Shown: positions 1,610 through 19,661 of the stretch, piece after piece
How positions within the stretch are numbered: the stretch's first letter is position 1
How the letters are laid out: each line of letters begins with the position of its first letter
Source of the DNA: Anaerolineae bacterium
GTDB taxonomy: Bacteria > Chloroflexota > Anaerolineae > 4572-78 > J111
Direction of reading: 5' to 3'
NCBI GenBank assembly: GCA_020433835.1
Contig: JAGRBY010000013.1
Span: 1 to 32,203, forward strand
DNA length: 32,203 nucleotides
Translations under genes and position numbers: made by a program
The notes under the pieces: model-generated
Told to the model about the DNA's origin: nothing
Database searches by the model: none
What the model saw: only the letters and a program-made list of their open reading frames with translations

Positions 1610-2503
1610 ATGTCGCGTCTTCGAGGCTTGACCGTGGCCTTATTGCTAGGGCTAACCGTTTTTTTTAACCTTGAACGATTAAATTTTACCCAGTTAAATA
1701 TTATAAATCTTGCCTCATTTGTTTATATGCTTGGAGTCCTGGCTGTAATCTCAGTTATATTAATTCCATTTCTGAGGCGGTCTTCTGTCGTTGTTTCTCT
1801 AGCGCTTTGGTTAGGCATATATGTTCTCTGCAAAATTTTCTTGTTTAACGACCGTCCTATCGTTGGGGGATTGTATACTTACCTTACGGTTACAGAAACC
1901 GTTCTGTTAACCCTTTTGATTTGGTTAGCCTATAGAGTAGCCTGTACCTTAAACGATTTTGAGGAGGTTATCGCTAATATTAGCTTGGCCGAAGTTAATG
2001 GACGCGTACAGCCTCTGCAGGAAGCGTCAAATGTTATTGATGGTGAAATGCTTCGCAGCCGTCGTTTTCATCGCCCTTTATCGATTATTGTGGTGAGACC
2101 TGAGGCAAACTCCATTAAAACTACTCTCCATCGCATTGTACGAGAAGTGCAGCAGGCTATGATGGAGCGCTATGTTTTTACCAGCCTCGCTCACGTTATT
2201 AGCAACTGTATAGAACGAACAAACTTCGTTATTGCCCACAGCGAAGATAATCGCTTTATTCTCTTATGTCCAGAAACGAATATAAATGACACAGCCGACT
2301 TGGTTGAGCACATCCGGAATGTGGCGTCCGAGAAACTGGGTGTTTCCCTGGCCTGTGGCGTATCATCTTTCCCTGATCAAGCGCTTACGTTTGAAGAGTT
2401 AGTTAATCACGCGGAAAAAAATATAAATTATTCAACCAAAGTGGTAAAAACTTCGACCGTTAGAGCGGTCGAGACGAGAAATGGGCATCATCAACATTTC
2501 TAA
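1610..2503 (+). CDS. Four-helix membrane protein with degenerate GGDEF domain
   Basis: A 297-residue protein. Residues 5-112 hold about four hydrophobic helices (roughly 5-22, 31-54, 58-79, 90-112). Residues 145-280 resemble a GGDEF domain: RSRRFHRPLS matches the early strand of that fold, and GVSSFPDQALTFEELVNHAE matches the conserved C-terminal helix region. The signature loop that should read GGDEF reads EDNRF (212-216), so both catalytic glycines and the acidic pair are lost. The family normally makes cyclic di-GMP; this copy should be inactive as a cyclase and may act as a sensor or scaffold. ATG 1610 follows a GAAGAGGA ribosome site. It is the first gene before the priming transferase and is AT-richer than the genes after it. 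The degenerate GGDEF assignment is by motif, not by search. Confidence 0.75.
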   Translation: MSRLRGLTVALLLGLTVFFNLERLNFTQLNIINLASFVYMLGVLAVISVILIPFLRRSSVVVSLALWLGIYVLCKIFLFNDRPIVGGLYTYLTVTETVLLTLLIWLAYRVACTLNDFEEVIANISLAEVNGRVQPLQEASNVIDGEMLRSRRFHRPLSIIVVRPEANSIKTTLHRIVREVQQAMMERYVFTSLAHVISNCIERTNFVIAHSEDNRFILLCPETNINDTADLVEHIRNVASEKLGVSLACGVSSFPDQALTFEELVNHAEKNINYSTKVVKTSTVRAVETRNGHHQHF

Positions 2504-2676: not shown

Positions 2677-3366
2677 ATGACTGCACGCCATCTCATTAAA
2701 TTTATGCATCCTCAAGCTATCTGGTTATATCAGTTTAATCCTCGCCGGAATCTTATATCAGGTCGGTTGTATCAGATTGTAAAGCGAATTATAGATTTAA
2801 CGCTCATTCTTCTTGCTTTGCCTATTTTAACGCCTGTCTTCTTCTTATGCGCTCTTTTGATCAAACTCGATTCGCCTGATGGGCCTATTCTTTTTTATCA
2901 AATGCGAACAGGGAAGGGCGGGCGGCGCTTTCGTATGTTGAAGTTTCGTACCATGGTGCCTAACGCGGAAGTATTGAAGAAAGAATTAGCCCATCTCAAT
3001 GAACTGCAGTGGCCTGACTTCAAGATTACCAATGATCCTCGCATTACGCGGGTAGGACGTATTTTACGCAAAACCAGTTTAGACGAACTGCCGCAGTTGA
3101 TTAATGTCATACGGGGTGAAATGAGTTTGGTTGGCCCCCGACCTACTTCGTTTGCGGCCGACACCTATGATTTATGGCATACTGAACGGCTTGATGTTAA
3201 ACCCGGCCTAACCGGTTTGTGGCAAATTATTGGGCGCGGTGAAATGGAATTTGATGAACGGGTTCGCCTTGATATTGAGTACATTCAGCGTCGCTGTTTG
3301 CGCCTTGACATGCAAATATTAGCGATGACCGTACTGGCTGTTGTCCAACAGCGTGGCAGACATTAA
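2677..3366 (+). CDS. Initiating sugar-phosphate transferase (bacterial sugar transferase family)
   Basis: A 229-residue enzyme of the polyprenyl-phosphate phosphoglycosyl transferase family (PglC/WbaP catalytic domain). It would transfer a sugar-1-phosphate from a nucleotide sugar to the membrane polyprenyl phosphate, the first step of repeat-unit assembly. Visible signs: one hydrophobic segment (about 41-63) typical of the re-entrant membrane helix, MLKFRTMVPNAE (87-98), the catalytic Asp136-Glu137 within TSLDELPQ, SLVGPRP (150-156) and PGLTGLWQ (176-183). It lacks the four-helix N-terminal half of WbaP-type enzymes, so it is the minimal form. ATG 2677 follows AAGGAG. Its stop overlaps the next start (TAATG). 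Sugar specificity cannot be read. Confidence 0.9.
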   Translation: MTARHLIKFMHPQAIWLYQFNPRRNLISGRLYQIVKRIIDLTLILLALPILTPVFFLCALLIKLDSPDGPILFYQMRTGKGGRRFRMLKFRTMVPNAEVLKKELAHLNELQWPDFKITNDPRITRVGRILRKTSLDELPQLINVIRGEMSLVGPRPTSFAADTYDLWHTERLDVKPGLTGLWQIIGRGEMEFDERVRLDIEYIQRRCLRLDMQILAMTVLAVVQQRGRH

Positions 3367-4634
3367 TGAAACCCAAGATCGCTTACATCATGTCGCGTTT
3401 TCCGCACCTGCCGGAAACGTTTATCCTCCGCGAGATGAGCGAGTTGGAACGACAAGGCTGGCAGGTAGCGCTGTATCCCTTGATCGCTCAAAACCAGACA
3501 GTAATTCATGATGAAGTGAACCATTGGCTGCCGCAAGTGCGCCAGTTACCTTTTGTCTCTCCGGCGGTTCTGGCGGCAAATGTACAAACTCTGGCTCAGG
3601 CTCCGGCCCGGTACGGAGAAAGCTGGTTCAAAGTGATCGTCGAAAACCGAACCTCACCCAAGTTCCTTGTTCGAGCGCTGGCTTTGCTGCCGAAAGCGGT
3701 GTATGCAGCCCGTTTAATGCAGCAAGAAGGGGTCGATCATATCCATGCCCATTATGCTACCCATCCGGCTATGGTAGCCTGGATCATCCATCGGCTAACT
3801 AATATTAGTTACAGTATTACCGTTCATGCTCACGATATTTTTGTTGAGCAAGCGATGTTAGCGACAAAACTTCGCGATGCAACCTTTATTGCAGCCATCT
3901 CTCACTATAATCGCGAATTTCTGGCTCAAACTGTGGGAACATGGGTTAGAGAAAAAACGCACATCGTTCACTGTGGCATCGAGCCGGATAATTATACCAA
4001 CCTTTCTAGAGGTAAGGCTCAACTGTCTGAACGGTTTGAAATTATAAGTATTGGGAGCCTACAACCGTACAAAGGACATCCTTACCTTATTCGGGCTTGT
4101 GCGTTACTTCGTGATCGTGGTATCCCGCTGCGCTGCCGCATTATTGGCGGTGGTGAAGATCAGGCTATGTTAGAGCACATGATTACGCAAGCCCAGCTTG
4201 AAGGGGTTGTTGAACTGCTCGGTCCGCAGCCGCAGGAGGAAGTTGCCCGTTTGTTGCCGACGGCCCATTGCTATGTTCAGCCCAGTATTATTACGCCGTC
4301 GGGCAAAATGGAAGGTATTCCGGTGGCTTTAATGGAGGCCTTGGCCTGTGCTTTGCCGGTGGTGGCTACCAACCTATCGGGCATTCCTGAGTTAGTACAG
4401 CCTGAAAAAACGGGGTATCTGGTTTCGCCGGCTAATCCATCCGCTTTGGCCGATGCTTTAAGCGCCATTTATGCTGATCCCGATAAAGCAAACCGGTTGG
4501 GGAAAGCCGGTCAAAATTTAGTGTTTCAAGAGTTCGATTTAAAGTCGAATGTTAAAAATAAGGCTGCTTTATTTGCAAAAGTTATTCAACAAAGACAGGC
4601 CCTGTCTTTGCCGGAAATAATGGTTAAGACTTAG
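3366..4634 (+). CDS. GT4-family glycosyltransferase
   Basis: A 422-residue GT-B fold enzyme that adds a sugar during repeat-unit assembly on the cytoplasmic face. The N-terminal half holds HIHAHYATHPA (125-135) and TVHAHDIF (152-159). The C-terminal nucleotide-sugar domain holds IGSLQPYKGH (229-238) and the GT4 signature E316-GIPVALM-E324 (E-x7-E). The start overlaps the preceding stop by one base, so translation is probably coupled. The next gene starts 14 bases downstream with an AGGAAGG ribosome site. The acceptor and donor cannot be deduced. Confidence 0.9.
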   Translation: MKPKIAYIMSRFPHLPETFILREMSELERQGWQVALYPLIAQNQTVIHDEVNHWLPQVRQLPFVSPAVLAANVQTLAQAPARYGESWFKVIVENRTSPKFLVRALALLPKAVYAARLMQQEGVDHIHAHYATHPAMVAWIIHRLTNISYSITVHAHDIFVEQAMLATKLRDATFIAAISHYNREFLAQTVGTWVREKTHIVHCGIEPDNYTNLSRGKAQLSERFEIISIGSLQPYKGHPYLIRACALLRDRGIPLRCRIIGGGEDQAMLEHMITQAQLEGVVELLGPQPQEEVARLLPTAHCYVQPSIITPSGKMEGIPVALMEALACALPVVATNLSGIPELVQPEKTGYLVSPANPSALADALSAIYADPDKANRLGKAGQNLVFQEFDLKSNVKNKAALFAKVIQQRQALSLPEIMVKT

Positions 4635-4648
4635 GAAGGAATGGAAAG

Positions 4649-5806
4649 ATGCAGGAATTGCTACATTACTTACGGATGATTAAACGAAGCTGGTGGATAG
4701 TGGCGCTGACAACACTGTCTGCTCTCAATATTGCTCTACTTGCATCATATCTGACACCCCCCACCTATCGAGCAACGGCACGTTTAATTGTCAGCCCCGG
4801 CCCCTCGTTGTTAGCCGGTGAGGATAAGGATTTGGTCAACAGCTTAGAAGCCTTAGACAAACGCTCGATCGTGGCTACGTATGTAGAAGTCATCAATAGC
4901 CGCCGGATTTTGCGAGAAAGCCGTGAGGCTCTGGCCCTGAGCGCAGAGGATATGGCCGACTACGAAGTATCCGCTGTGGTTTTGCCCGATGCCAGTGTTC
5001 TACAACTGGCTGTTACAGGCCCTAACCCGGAAATGACTGCACGGTTAGCTAATGATTTAAGCCAACGGGGTGTTTCATACATTGAAAACTTGTACTTGGT
5101 TTACAACATTAACCTGTTCGATCAGGCTACGCTACCCAAAAGCCCCATTGCCCCTCAACCAACCCGAAACGCCGGTGTAGCCGTTGTATTAGGGTTTGTT
5201 TTAGGAGCCGTGTTGGCCTTAATCCGCGAACACCTTCGCCAACCGCTTGATACCGTCCGTGATCGGATGAATATTGATAAACTTTCTTCGGCCTATTCAC
5301 GGCGCTATTTCAAAAATCGGTTAGAAGAAGAGTTAACGCGCCATCAGGTCGATAATTTGGCGTTGGGTGTTATTGAGTTGGAAGGTTTGCCTGAATGGCA
5401 GGAAACACTTTCTCAGCCGGCCTACCAACGCCTGCTTCGTCGGGTTAAAGGCATCCTGCAAGATGAGCTACGGGGTAAGGATGTTATTGGGCGGTGGGAT
5501 GAAGACTCTTTCGCTGTACTCTTACCGGGTGCGTCCGGCTCATCAGCAATGCAGCAGTTTGAGGCCGTGCAACGGGCATTGTTGCAGCCTATTATGCTCG
5601 ATGAAGATCAAACCATTCAGCTAAAACCCTACGCCGGAATTGCTTCTTCGCAAGGTTATGATGAGCACGCATTGACGTTGATCGAACAAGCGGAAGAGGC
5701 CTTAAGCCGTGCCCATCGTAATGGTCGCAATGTAATCCTGTTCACACCTGATGTGGCCCTGTCATACGCATCTACCGAACACAAAAACGGCTCAAATACG
5801 CTCTAA
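4649..5806 (+). CDS. Wzz-like chain-length protein fused to a degenerate GGDEF domain
   Basis: A 385-residue protein. Residues 1-195 form a Wzz-type polysaccharide co-polymerase: membrane helix 1 at about 17-36, an extracytoplasmic stretch, the proline-rich motif SPIAPQP (165-171), and helix 2 at about 174-192. Such proteins set polymer length and usually end in, or pair with, a tyrosine kinase. Here the cytoplasmic part (205-366) instead resembles a GGDEF domain: DKLSSAYSRRYF (210-221) matches the family's D-x-L-T-G-x-x-N-R-R start, and NGRNVI lies near the end. The active loop is DEDSF (284-288) instead of GGDEF, and the early metal-binding Asp region reads VIELEG, so cyclase activity is unlikely. 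ATG 4649 follows GGAAGGAATGG. It sits between a GT4 gene and the polymerase gene, as expected for chain-length control. Confidence 0.82.
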   Translation: MQELLHYLRMIKRSWWIVALTTLSALNIALLASYLTPPTYRATARLIVSPGPSLLAGEDKDLVNSLEALDKRSIVATYVEVINSRRILRESREALALSAEDMADYEVSAVVLPDASVLQLAVTGPNPEMTARLANDLSQRGVSYIENLYLVYNINLFDQATLPKSPIAPQPTRNAGVAVVLGFVLGAVLALIREHLRQPLDTVRDRMNIDKLSSAYSRRYFKNRLEEELTRHQVDNLALGVIELEGLPEWQETLSQPAYQRLLRRVKGILQDELRGKDVIGRWDEDSFAVLLPGASGSSAMQQFEAVQRALLQPIMLDEDQTIQLKPYAGIASSQGYDEHALTLIEQAEEALSRAHRNGRNVILFTPDVALSYASTEHKNGSNTL

Positions 5807-5810
5807 CCCC

Positions 5811-7319
5811 ATGATTAATAAACCCGCTCTTGTTAGAAATGAATGGTTACCCATTCTATTTGGGCTACTGGCTGTGGGAGTCGGTGCAGTAGCCAGCCTT
5901 GTGGTCGTTAACGTTCCCAGTAATATGCTCCTTATGGCTCTTGTCATAGCGCCGTTTATTGCTTTGGGAATGACCCGTAAACCGGAATGGGGGCTGCTGT
6001 TGTTGGTCTTTATGACCTATATCCGTTTATCGGATGTTTTGGTGGAATATCATGGCGTGCCTTCCATCGCCAAGCCGTTTATAGTTTTGCTTATCGTTAT
6101 CATCGCGGCCCGGTGGCTTCTGTATGGTGAAGAACCGCGCGGTTGGTACCAATCGGCATTAATTGTAATTGGGTATGGGTTGATCGGATTTACCTCGCTG
6201 CTCTACGCCGACGATAAATCCATTGTCCAAGGGGCATTGGTTGATCACGTTAAAGATGCCATTATCGCCGTCGTTATCACGATGCTTATCCATAAAGCTG
6301 TGACGCTACACCGGGTTGTTTGGATGTTATTGTTGGCAGGTATCTTTATGGGTACGCTTAGTGTCTATCAACAGATGACCGGGACGTTTGATAATATTTA
6401 TTGGGGATTTGCTCAGGCGGAAATAAAAAATATTGTGGGCGAAACGTCTGACTATCGAATCGGTGGCCCAGGGTTTGGCCCCAACGCCTATGGACAGTTT
6501 CTTGTTGTTCTGGTTCCCATAGCCTTAGATCGACTTTGGAGCGAGCGCAAACTTGGGCTGCGTATATTAGCAGGCTGGTCCTTAGGTGTGGTTGTGCTCT
6601 CTATCTTTTTTACCTTCTCGCGCGGTAGTTTCCTGGGATTATTGCTGGTGTTAGGCGCTATGATTATTCACCGGCCACCAAAGGTAACGACCCTGTTAGT
6701 GACGCTGTTGATGGCCATGTTTTTAGTTCAAATGATGCCGGCTCAGTACACGGATCGTTTAAAAACCCTGTTTGACCTGTTGCCCGGCTCTGACACGAAC
6801 GCGCTTGATGAAATATCGTTTCGAGGGCGCATTAGTGAAAATACCGTCGGCTGGCGGATGTTTACCGATCACCCCCTGATCGGCGTTGGTTTGGCAAACT
6901 ATAAAGCGAACTATCTGAGTTATTCGGAAGATTTGGGGATTGATGCTCGACGTGAGGAGCGGGGTGCCCATAATATGTACCTGCAAATTGCGGCGGAAAG
7001 CGGCCTGATGGGGCTGTTCGCTATGGGGTTGATTATGTGGGTGCTGTATCGGGCGGTTCGTGCTGCTGTAGCTGATTTTGAGCAGGCCGGGATGCCTGAT
7101 TATGCCAATTTGGCCTTTGCTTTTGGGGTTAGCCTGTTAGGATTTTTTGCAGTGGCTGTTGTAAAACACATGGCCCACCCCCGTTATTTTTGGATGTTGT
7201 GCGGTATTGCCCTCTCTATGCCATACGTAGCTCGACAGGAGTTGCAAGCTCGCTTGGCGGATAATTCTCGAAAAATCACCAATGCAGTAATGCTTGGAGC
7301 CGAGAAATATGATCAATAA
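5811..7319 (+). CDS. O-antigen polymerase/ligase family membrane protein (Wzy type)
   Basis: A 502-residue, strongly hydrophobic protein with about ten to twelve membrane helices. Family landmarks are FGPNAYGQF in the middle, FSRGSFLG (around residue 269) and HNMYLQIAAESGLMG (around 387), the pattern of the Wzy/WaaL domain. In this setting it most likely joins flipped repeat units into a polymer on the outer face of the membrane. The start at 5811 lies five bases after the preceding stop. An in-frame ATG at 5751 would overlap the previous gene by 56 bases and add a non-hydrophobic extension, so 5811 is preferred although it has no clear ribosome site; coupling to the upstream gene is likely. 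Ligase activity cannot be excluded from sequence alone. Confidence 0.85.
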   Translation: MINKPALVRNEWLPILFGLLAVGVGAVASLVVVNVPSNMLLMALVIAPFIALGMTRKPEWGLLLLVFMTYIRLSDVLVEYHGVPSIAKPFIVLLIVIIAARWLLYGEEPRGWYQSALIVIGYGLIGFTSLLYADDKSIVQGALVDHVKDAIIAVVITMLIHKAVTLHRVVWMLLLAGIFMGTLSVYQQMTGTFDNIYWGFAQAEIKNIVGETSDYRIGGPGFGPNAYGQFLVVLVPIALDRLWSERKLGLRILAGWSLGVVVLSIFFTFSRGSFLGLLLVLGAMIIHRPPKVTTLLVTLLMAMFLVQMMPAQYTDRLKTLFDLLPGSDTNALDEISFRGRISENTVGWRMFTDHPLIGVGLANYKANYLSYSEDLGIDARREERGAHNMYLQIAAESGLMGLFAMGLIMWVLYRAVRAAVADFEQAGMPDYANLAFAFGVSLLGFFAVAVVKHMAHPRYFWMLCGIALSMPYVARQELQARLADNSRKITNAVMLGAEKYDQ

Positions 7320-7370: not shown

Positions 7371-7469
7371 ATGAGTCAGCGAGCATTGGATAATGCATTA
7401 TCGGAACCGGTAGTACTTGATCAACGAATACGCACCTGCTTACCAGCCTACCTTTACGAAGCATCCTAA
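7371..7469 (+). CDS. Possible 32-residue small ORF ahead of the flippase
   Basis: ATG 7371 is preceded by GAAGGA (12 bases upstream) and opens a 32-codon frame ending with TAA at 7469, one base before the preferred flippase ATG at 7471. The peptide begins MSQRALDNALSEP and is not hydrophobic. It could be a leader whose translation couples to the flippase, a remnant of a longer gene, or chance. No homologue is recognised. Its position explains how the flippase could be translated without a strong ribosome site of its own. Confidence 0.3.
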   Translation: MSQRALDNALSEPVVLDQRIRTCLPAYLYEAS

Positions 7470-7470
7470 A

Positions 7471-8946
7471 ATGACCGACCACAACAAGAGTAGTTTCAAC
7501 AAATCAATCATCCATGGTGCTTTCTGGACCTACAATACTTTTTACGGTGGTAAGTTGCTGGTCTTTGTCAGTACCATTATTTTAGCCCGGTTGCTCACCA
7601 AAGAAGATTTTGGGGTAGTGGGGTACGCACTGCTTATCCTCAGCTTTTTGGGGGTTATGGAAGATTTAGGCATCGGCAAGGCCCTAATCTACCATCGAGA
7701 TGACCCGGAAGCAGCCCACACCGCTTTTTGGCTGGGTTTGGCTACCGGCATTGCTTTATTCTTTGCCACCTGGTTTATTGCACCTCTGGCAGCGGTCTTT
7801 TTTAATGACGAACGCATTATTCCCATTACCCGCGTTTTGGGCTTAACCTTTCCCATCTTCGCTCTGGGTAACGTACACAGTTCGCTGCTGGAAAAAGATT
7901 TACAATTTAAGCATACGTTTGGCCCGGAAGTGGCCAAAATGGGTGGCAAAGGTATTATTTCAATCCTCTTTGCTCTGCTCAATTTTGGAGCCTGGAGTCT
8001 GGCCTTCGGTCAATTAACCGGTTCGCTTATTTCTACTATAGTCTACTGGCGTGTTTTACCCTGGCGACCGGCTTTTCGTTTCTCGCGCCGCCATGTAAAG
8101 CCCCTGCTCTCCTATGGCGGCAGCCTGGTACTGGTAGGGGCTATGGCGATGATTTCAACCAACGCCGATTATCTGTTTGTTGGACGTTATCTGGGGGCGG
8201 CTGCCTTGGGGGTTTATACCCTGGCTTATCGCATTCCGGAAATGGTCATTTTGCAAATCAGCAAAGTGGTAGCCCGCGTTCTTTTTCCGGCCTACACCAA
8301 AATTCGAGATGACTCCAAAGCTTTGCAGGAAGCATTTCTATCCACTATTCGCTATATCTCTCTAATCACCGTTCCCTTGGGAGTGGGTATGGCCTTAGTT
8401 GCCGAGCCGATGGTTTTAACGTTGTTTACAGAGAAATGGGCCGAGGCAATTCCGGTGGTACGGGCAATTTCTATCTACACCCTTCTTTTTTCTTTGGCGG
8501 CCAACGCCGGCAGTGTTCACAAAGCCCAGGGCCGCACTATGTTGATGACCAAATTGGCAGGCTTGCGTACCATCGTGCTTTTACCGGCCTTATGGTGGAC
8601 CACACACGGCCCAATGGCCGGCATTGCCGCTGTCGGTTGGGCGCAGGCAATTATCGCCCTCTTTAGCGCCACGCTTAATCTGGTTGTGGCTGCCCAAATG
8701 ATTAATGTTCCGCTGATGGTTGTGGCTGAAACTATCTGGCCATCTGCTATCAGCAGCGCGGTAATGGCCTTGGCAATTGTGGCAATGTTGTTTGTGACAG
8801 CCTCGATGCCGGTGTTTGTACAACTCATTGCGGCAGTGCTCGTTGGCATGCTCGTTTATGCCTTCGTGATAGCCTGGCTGCAACAACAACTTGTGATCAA
8901 AATGAGTCGTACTGTCCGGGCTGTTTTACTGCGGGGAGGAAATTAG
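7471..8946 (+). CDS. Polysaccharide flippase (MOP superfamily, Wzx type)
   Basis: A 491-residue membrane protein with about twelve to fourteen helices. The opening SIIHGAFWTY...LARLLTKEDFG is typical of the oligosaccharide flippase family, as is the amphipathic entry followed by tightly spaced helix pairs. It should carry the polyprenyl-linked repeat unit from the inner to the outer face of the membrane. ATG 7471 is chosen because the conserved N-terminal helix begins about ten residues later; a TTG at 7417 in the same frame would add 18 polar residues and overlap the small ORF at 7371-7469. The next gene follows three bases after the stop. Confidence 0.88.
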   Translation: MTDHNKSSFNKSIIHGAFWTYNTFYGGKLLVFVSTIILARLLTKEDFGVVGYALLILSFLGVMEDLGIGKALIYHRDDPEAAHTAFWLGLATGIALFFATWFIAPLAAVFFNDERIIPITRVLGLTFPIFALGNVHSSLLEKDLQFKHTFGPEVAKMGGKGIISILFALLNFGAWSLAFGQLTGSLISTIVYWRVLPWRPAFRFSRRHVKPLLSYGGSLVLVGAMAMISTNADYLFVGRYLGAAALGVYTLAYRIPEMVILQISKVVARVLFPAYTKIRDDSKALQEAFLSTIRYISLITVPLGVGMALVAEPMVLTLFTEKWAEAIPVVRAISIYTLLFSLAANAGSVHKAQGRTMLMTKLAGLRTIVLLPALWWTTHGPMAGIAAVGWAQAIIALFSATLNLVVAAQMINVPLMVVAETIWPSAISSAVMALAIVAMLFVTASMPVFVQLIAAVLVGMLVYAFVIAWLQQQLVIKMSRTVRAVLLRGGN

Positions 8947-8949
8947 TTT

Positions 8950-10083
8950 ATGCATGTTGTTCAGATCATTGATGGGCTTCACTATGGTGGTGCTCAGAAA
9001 ATGCAGGTCGTACTGGCCCAAGAGATGCGCCGCCGTAACGTTAAGTTGACGGTGATAAGCCTGCGCGATGAAACGGAAGGTGCGACCACTGCCCAGGAGT
9101 TACGAGACCTCGGTGCCCGCGTCGCATTTTTTCCAGGTAACCGCCTGTTTGATCCGGGGCGTATTTGGCGAATGGTTCGCTTTTTAAGGCAAGAGTCATT
9201 TGATATTGTTCATGCCCATCTTACCTACGCCAATATTCTGGGCACGTTGACCGGGCGGCTGGCCGGTATTCCAACCATTGCCTCGCTGCGGAACGAAAGC
9301 ATTGACAGCCATCGCGTTCGGGCCGGGGTGGAGGCCTGGCTTCTGCGCCATTGGGCTAATCGGGTAATGGCTGTTGGCCATGCTACTGCCAAAGCCCATC
9401 AAGCGCGGCTGCACGGCCAACGCATCGAACCCATTCCCAGTGCCATGTCCCTCTTTCCACCCTTACCGCCGGCAGAACGGAACGCATTACGCACAGAACT
9501 TGTTGGTAATGCCAATCGGCCTCTACTGATTGCGGTAGGGCGGCTGCATCCTCAAAAAGGATACAGTGATTTACTTAATGCTTTTGCTAATCTGCACGAA
9601 TCCCATCCCGATGCTTTTCTCGTGATCGCCGGTGGTGGTCAGCTCTATGACGAACTGACCAACCAAATCAAAACGTTAAAATTAGAAGGCGATGTTCGGC
9701 TGCTTGGTCCGCGCAATGATGTGCCGCAATTGTTAGGGGCCAGCGATATTTTCGTGAGTGCCTCACATTGGGAAGGCTTACCGGTATCCGTTTTGGAAGC
9801 GATGGCTGCCGGGCTGCCTATTGTGGCTACGAAAGTTAGTGATGTGCCCAAGATTGTTCCGGCAGGAACCGGTCTGTTGGTTGCTGCCCACGCACCGGAT
9901 GAACTCGCCAGAGCTATCCACACCTTACTGGCCGATCCAACCCGGCGGCAAATATTCGGTGCGGCGGCTCAAGCTCACATTGCTCGCCATCACGCTCCGG
10001 CTGCGTGGGGTGACAAGATTATGGCTTTCTATAATGATCTTTTGGCCGGTCAAACCGGCGTATTGGCTGGGGTCGCCCCATGA
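8950..10083 (+). CDS. GT4-family glycosyltransferase
   Basis: A 377-residue GT-B enzyme. The N-terminal acceptor domain shows the GGAQK loop (13-17) and FDIVHAHLTYAN (84-95). The C-terminal donor domain shows VGRLHPQKGY (196-205) and E275-GLPVSVL-E283 (E-x7-E), the GT4 nucleotide-sugar site. GGGGAGGAAAT just upstream, overlapping the flippase end, is a good ribosome site for ATG 8950. Its end overlaps the next gene by four bases (ATGA). It presumably adds one residue of the repeat unit; the sugar is unknown. Confidence 0.9.
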   Translation: MHVVQIIDGLHYGGAQKMQVVLAQEMRRRNVKLTVISLRDETEGATTAQELRDLGARVAFFPGNRLFDPGRIWRMVRFLRQESFDIVHAHLTYANILGTLTGRLAGIPTIASLRNESIDSHRVRAGVEAWLLRHWANRVMAVGHATAKAHQARLHGQRIEPIPSAMSLFPPLPPAERNALRTELVGNANRPLLIAVGRLHPQKGYSDLLNAFANLHESHPDAFLVIAGGGQLYDELTNQIKTLKLEGDVRLLGPRNDVPQLLGASDIFVSASHWEGLPVSVLEAMAAGLPIVATKVSDVPKIVPAGTGLLVAAHAPDELARAIHTLLADPTRRQIFGAAAQAHIARHHAPAAWGDKIMAFYNDLLAGQTGVLAGVAP

Positions 10084-11216
10084 AATCAGATACACTGCGA
10101 ACAGCGATGATCATTCAGGCTTATCATCCTCACATCGGTGGGGCAGAGCGACAGTTAGCGGCTTTGGCCCCTTTGCTTCACAACCAGGGCGTTGACGTTC
10201 AGGTTCTTACGCGCCGTTATCCTGGTTTGGCCCCTTTTGAGCAAATTGATGGCGTCCCGGTTCATCGGCTGCCAATTCCCGGCCCTAAACCGATGGCTTC
10301 GTTTTCGTTTACCATGACCGCACTCCCGCTGTTGAGACAGCTTAAACCGGATGTTATCCACGCCCACGAACTTCTTTCTCCAACGACCACGGCTGTCACA
10401 GCCAAGCGTTTGTTTCGCGTGCCGGTGGTGGCTAAGGTTCTGCGCGGTGGTGTGTTGGGCGATGTGGCCAAATTAAAAAGTAAACCATTGGGCAGCAATC
10501 GCATTTCGTCGTTTCGGAAGCATGTTGATGCATTCATTACCATCAGCCATGAAATTGACGAAGAGTTAGCTGAACTCGGCATTGGTCAAGAGCGCCGACC
10601 CTTTATTCCTAACGGCGTCGATACCGAGCGCTTTAAGCCTCTGCCATCGGCCGCCAGAAAAGTGCTGCGCCAAAACTTGAGTCTGCCGGATGTGCCCATC
10701 GTCATTTTTACAGGTCGCCTGGCCGCAGAAAAGCGGGTTGACCAACTGGTGGCGCTCTGGCCTGAAGTTCGAGCCGTTCAGCCCGATGCCTTGCTGTTGG
10801 TGCTGGGTACCGGTGAGGAGGAGACGGCTCTCAAAAAAGCCGCCGGAGACGGCGTTCGCTTCGAGGGTCGCGTTGACGATGTTGTGCCTTATTTACAGGC
10901 CGCCGATCTTTTTGTGCTGCCTTCCGCGACGGAAGGATTATCGAATGCCTTGCTTGAGGCCTTGTCCAGCGGCATGGCCACCGTGGCCACAAAAGTGGGC
11001 GGCGCACCTGATGTTATTGATCACCAGAGAAGCGGCTGGCTGGTGCCGCCCGACCAACCGGCTGCTTTGCAAGAAGCGATTATTACCCTGTTGAGCCAAC
11101 CCGACTGCCGCACCGAACTGGGCCGGCGCGGGCGCGACTATATTGTCAGTAAATACGCGCTGCCGGTTATCGCCGAACGTTTGCGAACCCTTTATGAGCG
11201 GGTCTCGGCCAACTGA
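10080..11216 (+). CDS. GT4-family glycosyltransferase
   Basis: A 378-residue GT-B enzyme, paralogous in layout to the gene before it. Landmarks are GGAERQ (20-25), PDVIHAHELLS (90-100), the hinge region IPNGVDTERF (176-185), FTGRLAAEKR (210-219) and E285-GLSNALL-E293 (E-x7-E). The ATGA overlap with the upstream gene implies coupled translation. Repeat B copy 2 starts immediately after its stop codon, so this gene may end a transcription segment. Donor and acceptor are not predictable from the sequence. Confidence 0.9.
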   Translation: MKSDTLRTAMIIQAYHPHIGGAERQLAALAPLLHNQGVDVQVLTRRYPGLAPFEQIDGVPVHRLPIPGPKPMASFSFTMTALPLLRQLKPDVIHAHELLSPTTTAVTAKRLFRVPVVAKVLRGGVLGDVAKLKSKPLGSNRISSFRKHVDAFITISHEIDEELAELGIGQERRPFIPNGVDTERFKPLPSAARKVLRQNLSLPDVPIVIFTGRLAAEKRVDQLVALWPEVRAVQPDALLLVLGTGEEETALKKAAGDGVRFEGRVDDVVPYLQAADLFVLPSATEGLSNALLEALSSGMATVATKVGGAPDVIDHQRSGWLVPPDQPAALQEAIITLLSQPDCRTELGRRGRDYIVSKYALPVIAERLRTLYERVSAN

Positions 11217-11364: not shown

Positions 11365-12309
11365 ATGAATCAAGCAAGCCCTACACATGTCACCCCTATC
11401 GCCCCGGCACGCGATATTCGACTGCCTGACTTTATGATTGCCGGTGCCCAAAAATCCGGCACAACATCGCTGCACAACTATCTCGAAAGTCATAGCCAGG
11501 TTTATTTTCCGGAACAGCCTCAAGAACTTCATTACTTCGACATCGACGAAAACTTTAATAAAGGATTGGCCTATTACGAGTCATTTTTTAGAGAGGCACA
11601 GCCGGAACAGACAGCTATCGGGCAAACTTCGCCTCTCTATATTTACGAACCTCAGGCTCCGGCGCGAATAGCGCAGCTGCTGCCGCAGGTGAAATTGATC
11701 TTTATCTTGCGCAACCCTGTCGAGCGTGCCTATTCACATTATTGGCACTCAGTCAAAAAAGGGTACGAAACAGTGTCATTTGAAAAGGCTCTGGAGTTGG
11801 AGTCGAACCGGCTTAGACAAGGAGCATCACAGCGTCGTAACTACTCCTATGTTGATCGCGGTTATTACAGCCGGCAGCTTGAACGGTTTCTGAAACTTTT
11901 CTCGCGTGATCAAATACTGGTGTTACTCACCGAAGAACTCAGCCGGGAAACGGCCGCTACGCTCGATCGATGCTGCGATTTTCTAAATATCGACCGCCAG
12001 GGAGCTGAGATTGTCAATGGTTTGAATGAAAAACGGTGGAATACGTCGGGTATCCCCCGTTTTCCTGCCATCCAGCGGTTGACTGCCCCGTGGCGGTTTA
12101 AATCCGCATTGGTCGATAAAATTATTTGGCGAATTGATCGCTTAAATCTAAAACAGGTTCGTTACTCGGCCATGGATTCGGCCACGCGCGAAAAATTGGA
12201 AACGATCTTTGCGCCGGAATATGAGCGTTTGGCTGCGTTATTCAATCTTGATCTGGCAGCCTGGTCTAAGCCAACAGCCTCTAAAAACCAAGTGAAGGAT
12301 AGCTCGTAA
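11365..12309 (+). CDS. PAPS-dependent sulfotransferase
   Basis: A 314-residue protein of the carbohydrate sulfotransferase family, which moves sulfate from PAPS to a sugar hydroxyl or amine. The 5'-phosphosulfate loop AGAQKSGTTSL is at 26-36. QELHYFD (53-59) resembles the K-E-P-H-F/Y-F segment that carries the catalytic Glu in heparan-type enzymes. The 3'-phosphate site is LRNPVERAYSHYWH (115-128) with Arg116 and Ser124 in the expected spacing. It has no signal peptide or membrane helix, so it is predicted cytoplasmic and would act on nucleotide- or lipid-linked sugars before export. The next gene begins directly after its stop. PAPS-making genes are not in the window. Confidence 0.88.
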   Translation: MNQASPTHVTPIAPARDIRLPDFMIAGAQKSGTTSLHNYLESHSQVYFPEQPQELHYFDIDENFNKGLAYYESFFREAQPEQTAIGQTSPLYIYEPQAPARIAQLLPQVKLIFILRNPVERAYSHYWHSVKKGYETVSFEKALELESNRLRQGASQRRNYSYVDRGYYSRQLERFLKLFSRDQILVLLTEELSRETAATLDRCCDFLNIDRQGAEIVNGLNEKRWNTSGIPRFPAIQRLTAPWRFKSALVDKIIWRIDRLNLKQVRYSAMDSATREKLETIFAPEYERLAALFNLDLAAWSKPTASKNQVKDSS

Positions 12310-13581
12310 ATGATTGCAAAACTGTTCTGGTTGTGCGTGGGCAGCATTGGTTATGCCTACGCCGGATATCCCATCATCCTTACGCTGCTTGCTCGCCTAA
12401 GACCTAAGCCCCAACCCTATCCGCCCGCCACGCCTTCCGTAACGCTTTTGGTTGCGGCTCATAATGAGGAAACCGTCATCGCTCAGAAGCTCGAAAACAG
12501 TTTAGCGCTGGATTATCCTCGCCGGCAGTTGCAGATTATCGTTGCCGCCGACGGCTCAAGCGATCGCACGGCGGATATTGTGCGCCAATATGCTGACCAG
12601 GGCATCGAATTAAGTTTCAGCCCGCCGCGCCGTGGCAAAATGGCCGCCATCAATCGGGCCATGCAGCAAGCACGTGGCGAGGTCGTTGTCTTTTCCGATG
12701 CAAATAACATGTATGCCGCCGATACGTTGCGGGCGCTGGTTGCCCCCTTTGCCGACCCCACAGTCGGCGCAGCAACCGGAGCCAAATCGATTTTGCGTGG
12801 CGACGGCGTTTTGGGCGAGTCGGAAGGCATGTATTGGAAGTATGAGTCATTTATTAAGAAGCAAGAGACGCACCTGGGTAGCTGTACGGGTGTGGCTGGA
12901 GAGATTTTGGCCCTGCGACGGCGTCTGTTCGAAACGCCGCCCGATTACGTCATCAACGATGATTTTTATATGGCGATGCGCGTAAGCAAGCAGGGCTATC
13001 GAGTGGTTTATATCCCTCAGGCGCGTTCGTACGAAAGGGTATCGCTGTCGGCGCAGGATGAAATGACCCGCCGGGCGCGGATTGTGGCCGGTCGTTATCA
13101 GGCAATTGCCCTGGCCGGCGACCTGCTGCCCCGGCATAACCTTTTGCTCGTTTGGCAGGTTGTGTCTCATAAATTTCTGCGCCCGTTGGTGCCGCTGGCG
13201 ATGATTGGGGCCTTGGTGACAAATCTGCTTAGTCTGGAGCAGGCCACCCAAAAAAAGGGTATAACTTTGCTTTCGCTTGCGCCCCCTGTTAATTGGCTAG
13301 TGCTTCTGGGGCAGATGCTTTTTTATGGAGCCGCCTGGTTGGGTAATCAGTTGGAAGATAAAAATCATAAGCTGGCTAAGGTGCTCTACCTGCCCACCTT
13401 TTTGGTAAACAGTAATCTGGCCGCCCTAACCGGTTTGTATCGATTTGTGTCGGGGGGGCAAGCCACAACGTGGCAGCGCGTAAACCGTCGAGCGGAGCCT
13501 GCTCCGGTTATGAGTCAGCCAACATATAAAAATGGTATAGGACATCACCCGCAAGAGAGTAAAGTATCCAGCTATCTATAA
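12310..13581 (+). CDS. Membrane GT2 glycosyltransferase, processive/synthase type
   Basis: A 423-residue enzyme. One membrane helix lies at the N-terminus (about 5-26), a GT-A domain covers 40-270, and about three helices lie near the C-terminus. Catalytic landmarks are DGSSDRT, SDANNMY in the DxD position, SCTGVAGEILALRR, and NDDFYMAMRV with the putative catalytic base. The usual QxxRW of cellulose and hyaluronan synthases appears as TRRARIVAGRYQ. No PilZ domain follows, unlike BcsA. It starts right after the sulfotransferase stop (TAAATG), so the two are co-translated. The BcsB-like gene downstream makes a synthase-type export pair plausible. It could alternatively add a single residue, as many GT2 enzymes do. 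Confidence 0.87.
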   Translation: MIAKLFWLCVGSIGYAYAGYPIILTLLARLRPKPQPYPPATPSVTLLVAAHNEETVIAQKLENSLALDYPRRQLQIIVAADGSSDRTADIVRQYADQGIELSFSPPRRGKMAAINRAMQQARGEVVVFSDANNMYAADTLRALVAPFADPTVGAATGAKSILRGDGVLGESEGMYWKYESFIKKQETHLGSCTGVAGEILALRRRLFETPPDYVINDDFYMAMRVSKQGYRVVYIPQARSYERVSLSAQDEMTRRARIVAGRYQAIALAGDLLPRHNLLLVWQVVSHKFLRPLVPLAMIGALVTNLLSLEQATQKKGITLLSLAPPVNWLVLLGQMLFYGAAWLGNQLEDKNHKLAKVLYLPTFLVNSNLAALTGLYRFVSGGQATTWQRVNRRAEPAPVMSQPTYKNGIGHHPQESKVSSYL

Positions 13582-13713
13582 ATTTGTATTGAAATACGTT
13601 ATCACACAGCCACCTTTAACAAATAACAAGGTACTTCAATCCATCGTATAAGCACTTGAGCGCTACAGCAAGAACGGAAGGTCTGGTTAAAGTAACAAAT
13701 GGGAGCATTAAGT

Positions 13714-16656
13714 ATGATGAAAAAATTTTTGTATCGCTTAGGTATTGTTGGCATTGCCTTGTCTTTCATGATAACCCATACCTCACAGGGCTACGCTCAA
13801 AGCGAAAAGCCGGTCGCCGCCGGGGTATGCAGCAACTTGTTAACCAATGGCGATTTTGAGGCAAGCAGCGGTTGGAACTTAACATCCAGCGAACTGCCGG
13901 CTCAATACAGCCCTTTGGCCTACAGCGGCAACCAAAGCTTATTGCTGGGGTTAGAGAGCCAGCAAGTTAGCGACACGCCGGTCTGGTCCGCAGCGCGACA
14001 AACGGTTGCGCTTTCGGATGACACGGCTATCACACTCTCTTTTCGCTATCGTGTCCAGAGCGACCCCAATCCGGGTGATGATCGCTTTTTTGTGGCGCTG
14101 CTTGATGAAGACGATGAGGTGATTGAGACTCTTATCGATGATGCAGCTGAAAGTGGCGAATGGCAGTTATTTAGCCAGGCGATTTCACCCAACGCGGCTG
14201 AGCCGCTCCAAATTTACTTTGGTGTTGAAAACGATGGTCTTGACGGTGCGACCCAGGTATTGGTCGACGATGTTCAGCTCTGCCCGTCTGCTACCATTGG
14301 TTCGAACCAGCCGGCGGGTACTACCGAAGTTGTTACTGCTTCACCGTCGCTAACAGAAACCACTACAGTAATACCGGTTGATGATGAGGCCGTGGTTGAT
14401 TTTGAATTATTAGGCGTTGAGTCTATCAATCTGGAAAGTCCGTTTGGTCGAGAATTATTGCGCTTTAGCTTGCCCCCAACCTGGCAACCGGCTGAAGGGG
14501 CGGAGCTTCAATTAGACCTGACCATGCTGGTCAACAACCTGCCCTCCTTAGATGTAGAAGAGAGGGTGGCACCTTTCCAGGGTTCGTTGCAAGTCTTGCT
14601 TAATAAAAAGCTGTTGACCTCTATCATGGTTAGTGAAAATGATGCACAAACCATTACTATTCCTCTGCCGCCCACTGCGTTTGAGTCTACGCGTTCTGAT
14701 GGTCAGCAAGAGTTAGATTTTGCTTTAAAGGCAGATATTAATTGTGGTACGGCGCACCAAATGACCGTTGTCGTGCAGCCTACTTCACGGTTTATTATTC
14801 CACATCAAATTGTTTCACCTCCAACCGATCTACGGTGGTTACCCAAGCCCATTTATCAAGAGGCATCATTTTTGCCCGATACGGCTGTGCTTATCGTTCC
14901 CGAGGAGCCAACGTCAGACCAAATGCAGGCCGCACTTTCCGTAGCTGCCGGCTTTGGACAAATGACAAGAAGCAAATTAGAGCTGGATTTTATGCCGGTC
15001 GACCAATTAACTGCGGACATACAAGAGAACAACCATCTGATTTTTGTCGGTGATGCCGCTGCATTGCCCATTCTTGAAGAGGTAACCTTACCGGCACCCA
15101 GCGACGGCACACAGTTTGAGGCCGATGGGGCCGACCCCGATGATGGTATTATCCAGATGGCGGTTTCACCCTGGAGCGATGCCCACGTTGTTTTGGTTGT
15201 TGGTGGCAATTCTGACACAGCCGTAGTTAAGGCTGCCCAAGCTGTGAGTTCCGGGTTTGTCAGAGTGGGTACGCAAAACAATCTGGCCTTGGTGGCCCAG
15301 ATTCACCCCGGCGACTTTGTTACCAATCCCAACGTTGTTGATCGAACCTTTGCCGAACTGGGTTATGATATTCGGCAGGTCAACAGCCAAGGCACAAACT
15401 ATATTGAATATAACTTTAATGTGCCCCCTGGATACATTGGTGATCCCGAAGCGTATCTGGACCTGGTCATGAACCATTCGGCGCTGCTGGATTACGAGCA
15501 ATCGGGTCTCAGCGTCCGGTTGAATAACATCTCTATCGGCAGCGTTCGATTTGGTGAAGAGTTTACCAGCCCCAACCAAATTCGCTTTAGTATTCCGCGT
15601 TCGGCGCTGCTGCCCGGAAAAAATGAACTGGAGTTCCGGGCCGAACTGGAACCTTCTAACGATTGTATCAACCCCAATATTGGCGGTTTGTGGCTCACTA
15701 TCTGGCCGGAGTCGTTACTTCATTTACCGCTCAACCCTGCGCCTGGTGAGATAAAGTTAAATCTCGAATTGCACCAACATCCTGATCCTTTTGTTCAAAA
15801 TTCAAGCTTAGGCAGTACGGCCTTTGTACTGCCCTCTAACAATCCTGTCGCCTGGAGGGTTGCAGCCCAACTTGCCTTTGAACTTGGCGATAAAAGTGAT
15901 ACTGTTTTGGCCGATATTAGGGCCTTTTACGGGGATGATATTCCTGAAGATGTTCGGCAAACACGCCATACCATCATTGTGGGTCGGCCCAGTCAACTGC
16001 CTATCATCCAAACCTTAAATGACGTTATGCCTGTTACGTTTGATACAAGCAGCGATATTGCCTCTGAGCGCCAAATGCGGGTGAGCTATCGCTTACCGCC
16101 CGAAGTAAGCCTCGGCTATCTGCAATTGTTTCCTTCGCCCTGGAGCAAGAGCCATCTTATTTTAACCGTCCTTGGCAGCACCGATCAAGGGGTTGAGTGG
16201 GCCGGTCGGGCACTGCTGGAGCCGGATCTGCGCGGTAATCTGGCAAACAATCTGGCTATCATCAGCGATGAGCAAATTATAAACGGCGAACCGCAACCCC
16301 AACAAAGTCTCGCCGAGGCAGCCCCTGCGTCTGCTGCGGATACGCCCGCTGTTGCTGACACAAACACCACTGCCGATACAGGCGAGGTTGCAGACACGAC
16401 CGAAATTGTAGAGGCAGATGAGTCGGCCCTGGCCAGTACGTCCGAAGATACAGCCGACGCATTTGTTGCACCCGACCCCGAAACAATTGAGGTTGAGAAC
16501 GTCAGTTCCGCTTCGGTCGAAGGCCATCCATCCTGGATTTTACCGCTATTGGGAGGATCATTAGGGCTGTCGGTCTTAATTCTACTTATCGCCTTAATAA
16601 GCGGTTGGCGAAAGCGTAGAGTACCTTCTCTTGTAAAACAAAATGGTAGAATGTAG
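13714..16656 (+). CDS. BcsB-like exopolysaccharide secretion protein with N-terminal carbohydrate-binding-like domain
   Basis: A 980-residue exported protein. A signal peptide ends at GYA/QS (about 28). Residues 32-190 (LTNGDFEASSGW ... VLVDDVQLC) look like a galactose-binding-type beta-sandwich. Residues 230-860 resemble two successive BcsB halves: each has a jelly-roll with a LNKK/LNNI type strand and a Cys-containing strand (INCGTAHQ, SNDCINPN), then a flavodoxin-like segment ending in a paired IFVGD / IIVGRPSQLPI strand. A long Ala/Asp/Thr-rich linker (about 865-930) leads to one C-terminal membrane helix and a basic tail. In cellulose synthesis BcsB escorts the polymer away from the synthase. 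ATG 13714 is chosen because GGGAG lies eight bases upstream; ATG 13699 is an alternative. Confidence 0.8.
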   Translation: MMKKFLYRLGIVGIALSFMITHTSQGYAQSEKPVAAGVCSNLLTNGDFEASSGWNLTSSELPAQYSPLAYSGNQSLLLGLESQQVSDTPVWSAARQTVALSDDTAITLSFRYRVQSDPNPGDDRFFVALLDEDDEVIETLIDDAAESGEWQLFSQAISPNAAEPLQIYFGVENDGLDGATQVLVDDVQLCPSATIGSNQPAGTTEVVTASPSLTETTTVIPVDDEAVVDFELLGVESINLESPFGRELLRFSLPPTWQPAEGAELQLDLTMLVNNLPSLDVEERVAPFQGSLQVLLNKKLLTSIMVSENDAQTITIPLPPTAFESTRSDGQQELDFALKADINCGTAHQMTVVVQPTSRFIIPHQIVSPPTDLRWLPKPIYQEASFLPDTAVLIVPEEPTSDQMQAALSVAAGFGQMTRSKLELDFMPVDQLTADIQENNHLIFVGDAAALPILEEVTLPAPSDGTQFEADGADPDDGIIQMAVSPWSDAHVVLVVGGNSDTAVVKAAQAVSSGFVRVGTQNNLALVAQIHPGDFVTNPNVVDRTFAELGYDIRQVNSQGTNYIEYNFNVPPGYIGDPEAYLDLVMNHSALLDYEQSGLSVRLNNISIGSVRFGEEFTSPNQIRFSIPRSALLPGKNELEFRAELEPSNDCINPNIGGLWLTIWPESLLHLPLNPAPGEIKLNLELHQHPDPFVQNSSLGSTAFVLPSNNPVAWRVAAQLAFELGDKSDTVLADIRAFYGDDIPEDVRQTRHTIIVGRPSQLPIIQTLNDVMPVTFDTSSDIASERQMRVSYRLPPEVSLGYLQLFPSPWSKSHLILTVLGSTDQGVEWAGRALLEPDLRGNLANNLAIISDEQIINGEPQPQQSLAEAAPASAADTPAVADTNTTADTGEVADTTEIVEADESALASTSEDTADAFVAPDPETIEVENVSSASVEGHPSWILPLLGGSLGLSVLILLIALISGWRKRRVPSLVKQNGRM

Positions 16657-18863: not shown

Positions 18864-19661
18864 GTGATATACGTTATTCTTGGCATGCATAAATCGGGTA
18901 CAACCCTCGTATCACAAATGCTGCATCATTCCGGCATCAACATGGTTGATGCGCTTGAGGCCGGCGTTTCCTACGATCAGGGCAATAAATACGAGCGCCA
19001 ATCCGCCAAAAATCTCAACGAAGCGATTTTGGATTGCCGTGGAGTCGAAAGCATCGATATCGCCGTGCCTGATGCGCTTGAGCTTACAGACGAGCATCGT
19101 ACCCAAATGCAGGAGATTATTCGCCAATGTACGGATAAGTACGGCACATGGGGCTTCAAAGATCCTCGCACCTCGCTTATCTATCCCCTGTGGGCTTCGC
19201 AACTACCCGAACATAAGCTCATTGTGGTTTATCGTTCGCCGGATGAATTGTGGCAGCGCTATCGATCGGATCATTTTCGCAATCGATATCGTGATCCCTA
19301 CAAAGCCTGGCGATTAATGAACCGCTGGTGTGAGCATAACGCTGCCATTGTCAATTATCTGCATCAAACGTCTATGGATTTTATCGTCTTAGATTATCGC
19401 CGCTTGGTGTCTACTGCGGCGGAATTTGACCGGCTGCGCGATTTTGTCGGCCAAGATTTAAGTGATCAGCGTAAAATCGCGTTGTACCGCCATCAACCGG
19501 GGCAAAAGCCGTTCATGTTGAAAATGATCGATGACGTTATTGAACGACGCCACGGTTACCGCTCAGAGACCATCATCGAACAGCTTGACGCCTTAAAAAA
19601 CGGCGGTCAAGGGGGTAAAGCAACGGTTGGCGATTGGTCGCAAACAGTTGGGGCGCATTAA
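18864..19661 (+). CDS. Sulfotransferase-family protein
   Basis: A 265-residue protein starting at GTG 18864 with GGAG eight bases upstream. The very N-terminal P-loop MHKSGTTLVSQML (8-20) is the PAPS 5'-phosphosulfate loop of sulfotransferases. WGFKDPRTSLIYPLW (96-110) and VYRSPDELWQRYRSDHF (122-138) follow the family pattern for the central strand and 3'-phosphate site. It is only distantly like the sulfotransferase at 11365-12309, which has a longer N-terminus and a different acceptor region. No signal peptide. It ends one base into the next gene (TAATG), so it is translationally coupled to the beta-helix lipoprotein. A nucleotide-binding role other than sulfation is possible. Confidence 0.75.
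   Translation: MIYVILGMHKSGTTLVSQMLHHSGINMVDALEAGVSYDQGNKYERQSAKNLNEAILDCRGVESIDIAVPDALELTDEHRTQMQEIIRQCTDKYGTWGFKDPRTSLIYPLWASQLPEHKLIVVYRSPDELWQRYRSDHFRNRYRDPYKAWRLMNRWCEHNAAIVNYLHQTSMDFIVLDYRRLVSTAAEFDRLRDFVGQDLSDQRKIALYRHQPGQKPFMLKMIDDVIERRHGYRSETIIEQLDALKNGGQGGKATVGDWSQTVGAH

Follow-up and report, generated by a model that had tools for sequence, protein, structure and literature searches.

We analysed a 32,203-nucleotide stretch (the window) of contig JAGRBY010000013.1 from an Anaerolineae bacterium (assembly GCA_020433835.1), in which a single gene encodes a polysaccharide co-polymerase (PCP) of the Wzz/CpsC type fused to a degenerate GGDEF domain. The fusion belongs to a Chloroflexota family of PCP-2-type proteins in which a dead GGDEF domain occupies the place taken in others by a bacterial tyrosine (BY) kinase. 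The explanation that best covers the results as a whole, which we would back and doubt in equal measure, is that the inhibitory site (I-site) of this domain serves the family as a cyclic di-GMP (c-di-GMP) switch and that this site has partly decayed in the copy in the window. The features on which the argument turns are:

4649..5806, + strand: Wzz/CpsC-type polysaccharide co-polymerase fused to a degenerate GGDEF domain, 385 amino acids
4649..5248, + strand: Wzz half, residues 1-200, from Pfam Wzz, a weak GNVR match and the predicted model, with presumed topology
5261..5746, + strand: degenerate GGDEF domain, residues 205-366, presumably cytoplasmic
5471..5482, + strand: RGKD, residues 275-278, aligned with RSSD of WspR and so matching the RxxD inhibitory c-di-GMP site in register
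5498..5512, + strand: DEDSF, residues 284-288, replacing GG[DE]EF (GGEEF in WspR)
5564..5566, + strand: Ala306, at the position of the third I-site arginine (Arg in 57 of 69 family rows)

The reading frame was intact and its ATG was preceded by a purine-rich AGGAAGG. Pfam searches assigned Wzz (PF02706) to residues 4-90 (E 1.9e-11, 44.6 bits against a cut-off of 25.5) and GGDEF to residues 208-361 (E 1.9e-19, 70.4 bits against a cut-off of 23.8), confirming the fusion that an earlier interpretation made from the letters alone (the sequence-only reading) had proposed. GNVR scored under its cut-off at residues 152-194, and the NCBIfam CpsC family (TIGR01006) spanned residues 4-197 with an E value of 1.1e-20 and 74 bits, below its cut-off of 296. 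The predicted model showed helices at residues 15-35 and 171-207, the membrane-embedded part of the second lying, as we read the model, at about 171-192, and the proline-rich SPIAPQP motif occupied residues 165-171, ahead of this second membrane helix. Both helices and the motif had already been recognised from the letters; together with the Wzz domain that the helices flank, they identify a Wzz/CpsC-type PCP, and the stretch between helix 15-35 and residue 171 would lie outside the membrane. Residues 205-366 were predicted to adopt the fold of the GGDEF superfamily and not that of a tyrosine kinase, so that a kinase hidden in this half is ruled out as far as the model goes. Since the structure-match lists were dominated by GGDEF domains, they said little about the Wzz half. 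The last 40 residues contained a single Tyr and no tyrosine cluster, and the Pfam search found no GAF domain in the fusion.

In the alignment with WspR, RGKDVIGRWDEDSF of the fusion stood opposite RSSDLAARYGGEEF of WspR. The DEDSF loop, which the sequence-only reading had taken as a GGDEF landmark, indeed fell opposite GGEEF. GG[DE]EF was present in 0 of 69 family rows, which carried 45 different words at that site, and the positions aligned with what we take to be the metal and guanine contacts of active cyclases varied across the family. Judged from these sequences, the active site is catalytically dead, as had been supposed. A working diguanylate cyclase tethered to the co-polymerase, which the GGDEF fold would by itself allow, was therefore rejected and retains next to no probability. 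What the sequence-only reading had missed is the register of RGKD with the RxxD of WspR. RxxD was found in 61 of the 69 rows, most commonly as RGND, and G276, D278, G281, R282 and W283 were among the 11 most conserved of the 162 domain positions. Compared with degenerate-GGDEF c-di-GMP receptors, the protein of the window has the RxxD and lacks the third arginine (R402 of PelD), which is Ala306 here; the two positions were equated by spacing only (31 residues here against 35 and 32 in two PelD proteins). The complete Arg-Asp-Arg triad occurred in 54 of 69 family rows and in 17 of 18 full-length genomic fusions, the exception being that of G001, the nearest sequenced relative (85% identical at the fusion protein). 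Three more distant full-length fusions had no full triad (L053, RETD and Lys; L054, RIED and Ser; L055, HDED and Glu at the third position). The last of these (L055, 9367-10545) is a second, distant Wzz-GGDEF fusion in G001 itself.

The homologue search gave at least 82 matches from the 7996 candidates sharing most words. The 69-row family comprised the query and 68 of the 82 matches, aligned along their length; left out were P0002 (100% identical), P0006, P0062, P0072 and P0074 (shorter or partial) and P0075-P0083 (other architectures or unrelated GGDEF proteins). Searching Chloroflexota genomes for the same architecture, as the sequence-only reading had advised, showed that at least 18 of 400 genomes sampled from the phylum of G001 encode the full-length fusion at E <1e-120, a lower bound since at most five candidates were scored per genome. 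An assembly artefact is thus dismissed, because 68 other proteins align along the length and genomes across this sample encode full-length copies; in many family members Pfam annotation also assigns both domains. Six of the 18 genomes (L047-L052) were near-identical in the Wzz half. The neighbourhood recurred as well: a Wzx and/or Wzy match was present in 18 of 18 fusion loci (one weak, L045, 35 bits), a BcsB-like gene near the fusion in 15 and a companion with a second degenerate GGDEF domain in 10, all lower bounds, as L001 ends at the contig end and the stretches of L036 and L044 stop short of it. For the companion, 31 of 34 matches were aligned (P0115-P0117 were partial).

No BY-kinase was detected at E<=1e-5 in the window or in 33 related loci, as had been claimed for this cluster, and the same queries were positive in 12 of 12 control loci; weak matches above that threshold had values of 0.0024 (L153) and 0.0096 (L055). 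Unlike PCP-2a and PCP-2b proteins with their BY-kinases, the fusion thus had neither a fused nor an adjacent kinase and carried GGDEF instead. The earlier description of this domain as a stand-in for the kinase holds at the level of the locus but not of the genomes, 14 of 18 of which carry BY-kinase genes elsewhere; a shortage of BY-kinases in these bacteria is therefore not what the fusion reflects. Concerning the messenger, 17 of 18 fusion genomes had 6-27 GGDEF matches at E<=1e-10, a count that may include the fusion, and HD_5 was found in 18, EAL in 11 and PilZ in 9 of these genomes, which were selected for a strong full-length match and are not a neutral sample for correlation with cyclases. 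In the six closely related genomes L047-L052, the fusion has an HD_5 (HD-GYP-type) gene at a distance of about 8-10 kb.

From these sequences we propose that the family works like a degenerate-GGDEF c-di-GMP receptor. I-site-bound c-di-GMP can link two GGDEF domains, as in PleD. In the fusion, c-di-GMP would bind at the I-site of the GGDEF half, as in PelD, and the bound ligand would tie adjacent cytoplasmic domains together or reorient them by way of the helical extension of the second membrane helix. A co-polymerase ring could thereby be favoured or disfavoured and the Wzy polymerase switched, making c-di-GMP the counterpart of tyrosine phosphorylation in Wzc; both the ring and the sense in which it would respond are our extrapolation, as is any influence on chain length. 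With slightly less confidence than we give the explanation as a whole, we suggest a further PCP-2 class in which c-di-GMP bound by a fused pseudo-cyclase, and not tyrosine phosphorylation, switches ring assembly and Wzy-dependent polymerisation, a second pseudo-cyclase from the same cluster is often the partner, and the lineage of the window is losing the messenger input. If true, a co-polymerase and a c-di-GMP receptor in one chain would unite the control of synthase-dependent and Wzx/Wzy polymers and offer a compact test case for the way in which a signal governs ring state.

Known systems provide the comparisons. BcsE, a cellulose accessory protein, is not known to have a Wzz part. Like the fusion, it carries a degenerate GGDEF domain with an I-site and serves a polysaccharide synthase (PMC8461298). 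PelD of Pseudomonas and Bacillus cereus shares with the fusion its nature as a membrane-bound component of polysaccharide machinery whose GGDEF domain is dead; in PelD, RxxD and a third arginine bind c-di-GMP, and each of the substitutions R367A, D370A and R402A abolishes c-di-GMP binding and pellicle formation (PMC2170427). PelD differs in having a GAF domain and in serving the Pel system, whereas here a Wzz/CpsC co-polymerase stands beside Wzx and Wzy. Wzc (PCP-2a) and CapAB (PCP-2b) share with the fusion the Wzz membrane and extracytoplasmic part, the Wzx/Wzy context and a potentially regulatory cytoplasmic domain; they have a BY-kinase and a tyrosine cluster, while the fusion has a GGDEF fold and neither of these. 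Phosphorylation of the tyrosine tail has been proposed to dissolve the Wzc octamer and halt polymerisation (PMC8285477). PCP-2 systems that work with pseudokinases point to phosphorylation being replaceable (PMC12004946): in EpsV-EcpK and HfsA-HfsB a co-polymerase is served by a catalysis-dead enzyme fold, as here, but this BY-pseudokinase is a separate protein, whereas the pseudo-cyclase sits in the same chain. c-di-GMP is an established direct regulator of synthase-dependent polymers, cellulose and Pel among them (PMC8461298), and the Wzx/Wzy pathway is known for control through tyrosine phosphorylation of the co-polymerase (PMC8285477). The available text of the review on c-di-GMP control of exopolysaccharides (PMC8461298) mentions neither Wzz nor Wzx. 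In agreement with the sequence-only reading, which knew of no precedent, no Wzz-GGDEF fusion appeared in the titles and abstract beginnings of the literature searched, a coverage that leaves out most subscription journals. In the passages covered, PMC11340318 and PMC3584217 keep Wzz and GGDEF apart, in different proteins or different contexts, and PMC4971617 reports a cyanobacterial protein of 530 amino acids whose GGDEF domain lacks the motif and which is not presented there as fused to Wzz. Within the reach of these searches, the architecture is visible in databases but undescribed.

Several observations weigh against a c-di-GMP switch. RxxD alone is ancestral, because the best canonical GGDEF matches of the fusion genomes have it, together with GG[DE]EF, in 27 of 27 parsed (27 of 30 loci; L072 and L081 were unmatched and L073 was a fusion), and as stand-alone proof of binding it was rejected on this ground. 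On the supporting side, the third arginine appears to be more than a leftover because it was present in 56 of 57 core fusion rows outside the branch of the window against 18 of the 42 canonical cyclase domains read in 27 Chloroflexota genomes (15 of 39 distinct), although this contrast is indicative, since the canonical set (42 of 46 parsed) was made of high scorers with RxxD required and its third position was read ungapped at fixed spacing. Control of a ring is argued by analogy with Wzc only. In G001 we found no canonical GGDEF, EAL or PilZ match and two weak HD_5 matches; absence of cyclases refers here to drafts (9.8 Mb for G001; 7.9 Mb with long contigs for G410), and family members from metagenomes have no genome to search. 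The protein of the window itself has lost the third arginine, and is not filed as a c-di-GMP receptor for that reason. A tree from the Wzz half only (GGDEF columns excluded; all 69 rows plus 9 loci, after an earlier tree of 60 rows, 20 of them from the family) placed it in a 15-row branch with support of 93/95, just below the star mark of the tool. The full triad was missing in 14 of these 15 rows and in 4 of 57 other core rows (Fisher p 1.4e-10, rows not independent). Within the same branch, G414 has cyclases and its fusion has lost RxxD, so that the decay of the I-site is not a plain consequence of messenger loss; the tool counted one TAG in the G414 match, but the open frame is 377-384 amino acids. 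Conversely, G403 has no canonical cyclases, yet keeps RDED with the third arginine gone. The companion lost RxxD in the six rows of this branch and kept it in the other 25, but it also kept it in four genomes without canonical cyclases (L143, L149-L151), and is therefore not used as evidence of c-di-GMP binding. A simple rule of no cyclases, no I-site thus held only partly (G403, G414 and the companion of L143 and L149-L151). The nucleotide or protein signal envisaged by the sequence-only reading can be named as c-di-GMP for most of the family, where the I-site is kept; for this protein the claim finds no support as worded, as one of the three residues essential in PelD is gone and its closest sequenced relative seemingly has no c-di-GMP enzymes. 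Since the I-site is partly decayed in its branch, binding of c-di-GMP by the copy in the window is probably weak or absent, and its GGDEF half is probably retained mainly as an assembly or docking module. For a loss of this kind the nearest precedent is streptococcal PelD, from which the GGDEF domain is missing and whose bacterial hosts are not known to employ c-di-GMP (PMC7112168); in parallel, two rows of the branch of the window (L143 and L144) have no such domain. Such a branch provides natural loss variants.

Among the alternatives, a ligand-free scaffold, in which the GGDEF fold holds the co-polymerase as a dimer- or ring-forming module much as the pseudokinase EcpK does with EpsV, is unlikely but the most serious. 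Between the window and L001, dN/dS of the GGDEF half was 0.125 (Wzz half, 0.074; adjacent GT4 gene, 0.118); the value for the GGDEF half indicates purifying selection despite an incomplete I-site, and the second degenerate GGDEF protein of the cluster could be a partner. A scaffold, however, leaves the triad in most of the family unexplained, and two relatives of the same branch (L143, which shares the gene order of the window, and L144) manage without the domain, ending shortly past the second membrane helix. These truncations speak for a vestige, whereby ancestral c-di-GMP control was lost in the branch and the domain is on its way out, an explanation we regard as improbable. Consistent with a vestige, the third arginine is gone from the window (Ala306) and from the three rows nearest to it (Ser, Ile and Ser), and at Wzz identity of 0.8-0.95 the GGDEF identity was 0.742 in the branch (7 pairs) against 0.831 elsewhere (60 pairs; pairs not independent). 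Moreover, 11 of 25 genomes in the order of G001 had a match at E<=1e-30, and among them a fusion (one broken) was carried by 4 of the 4 that have canonical cyclases and by 2 of the 7 that lack them (one-sided p 0.045, uncorrected for kinship). In contrast, the dN/dS of the GGDEF half is far from neutral, RGKD is intact in the window, P0003, P0004 and P0005, and G407, which has cyclases, also has a copy without the GGDEF domain (L113). Still far less probable is that the altered site reads another ligand (GTP, ppGpp or a different cyclic dinucleotide): the GRW beside the site is strongly conserved and PleD structures with ppGpp and pppGpp are on record, but nothing here speaks for such a ligand and the aligned metal and guanine positions vary. 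As a side observation, L098 and L099 of G001 join receiver-like regions (judged by eye) to degenerate GGDEF-like domains, and weak GGDEF matches in frames of about 300 amino acids recur within its order.

The fusion lies in a Wzx/Wzy cluster, with Wzy and Wzx directly after it:

1610..2503, + strand: companion membrane protein with a second degenerate GGDEF domain, 297 amino acids; ERTN replaces RxxD
2677..3366, + strand: sugar-phosphate transferase initiating the repeat unit (PF02397, E 1.7e-63)
3366..4634, + strand: GT4 glycosyltransferase, EpsE-like
5811..7319, + strand: Wzy polymerase, O-antigen ligase family (PF04932, E 1.9e-21)
7417..8946, + strand: Wzx flippase (PF13440, E 2.8e-84)
8950..11216, + strand: two GT4 glycosyltransferases
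12310..13581, + strand: GT2 glycosyltransferase, PgaC-like; PilZ domain not found
13699..16656, + strand: BcsB-like protein (PF03170, E 8.5e-46)

Judging by the sequence around it, the start of Wzy is likely 5811 and not 5751. Between positions 2400 and 7500, predicted promoters (10 against 8.3 in shuffles, standard deviation 2.9) and terminators (7 against 5.9, standard deviation 2.4) were not used. A viral origin was rejected: 10 stretches matched a pattern and none of them encodes a relative. A PgaC-like GT2 without PilZ and a BcsB-like protein (12310-16656) thus occur within a Wzx/Wzy cluster, and in L037-L041 and L045 the fusion gene adjoins BcsB; in such a mix of synthase-like and Wzy-type genes, the fusion could serve the GT2-BcsB pair. 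Two sulfotransferase-family genes, at 11365-12309 and 18864-19661 of the window, suggest that the polymer is sulfated.
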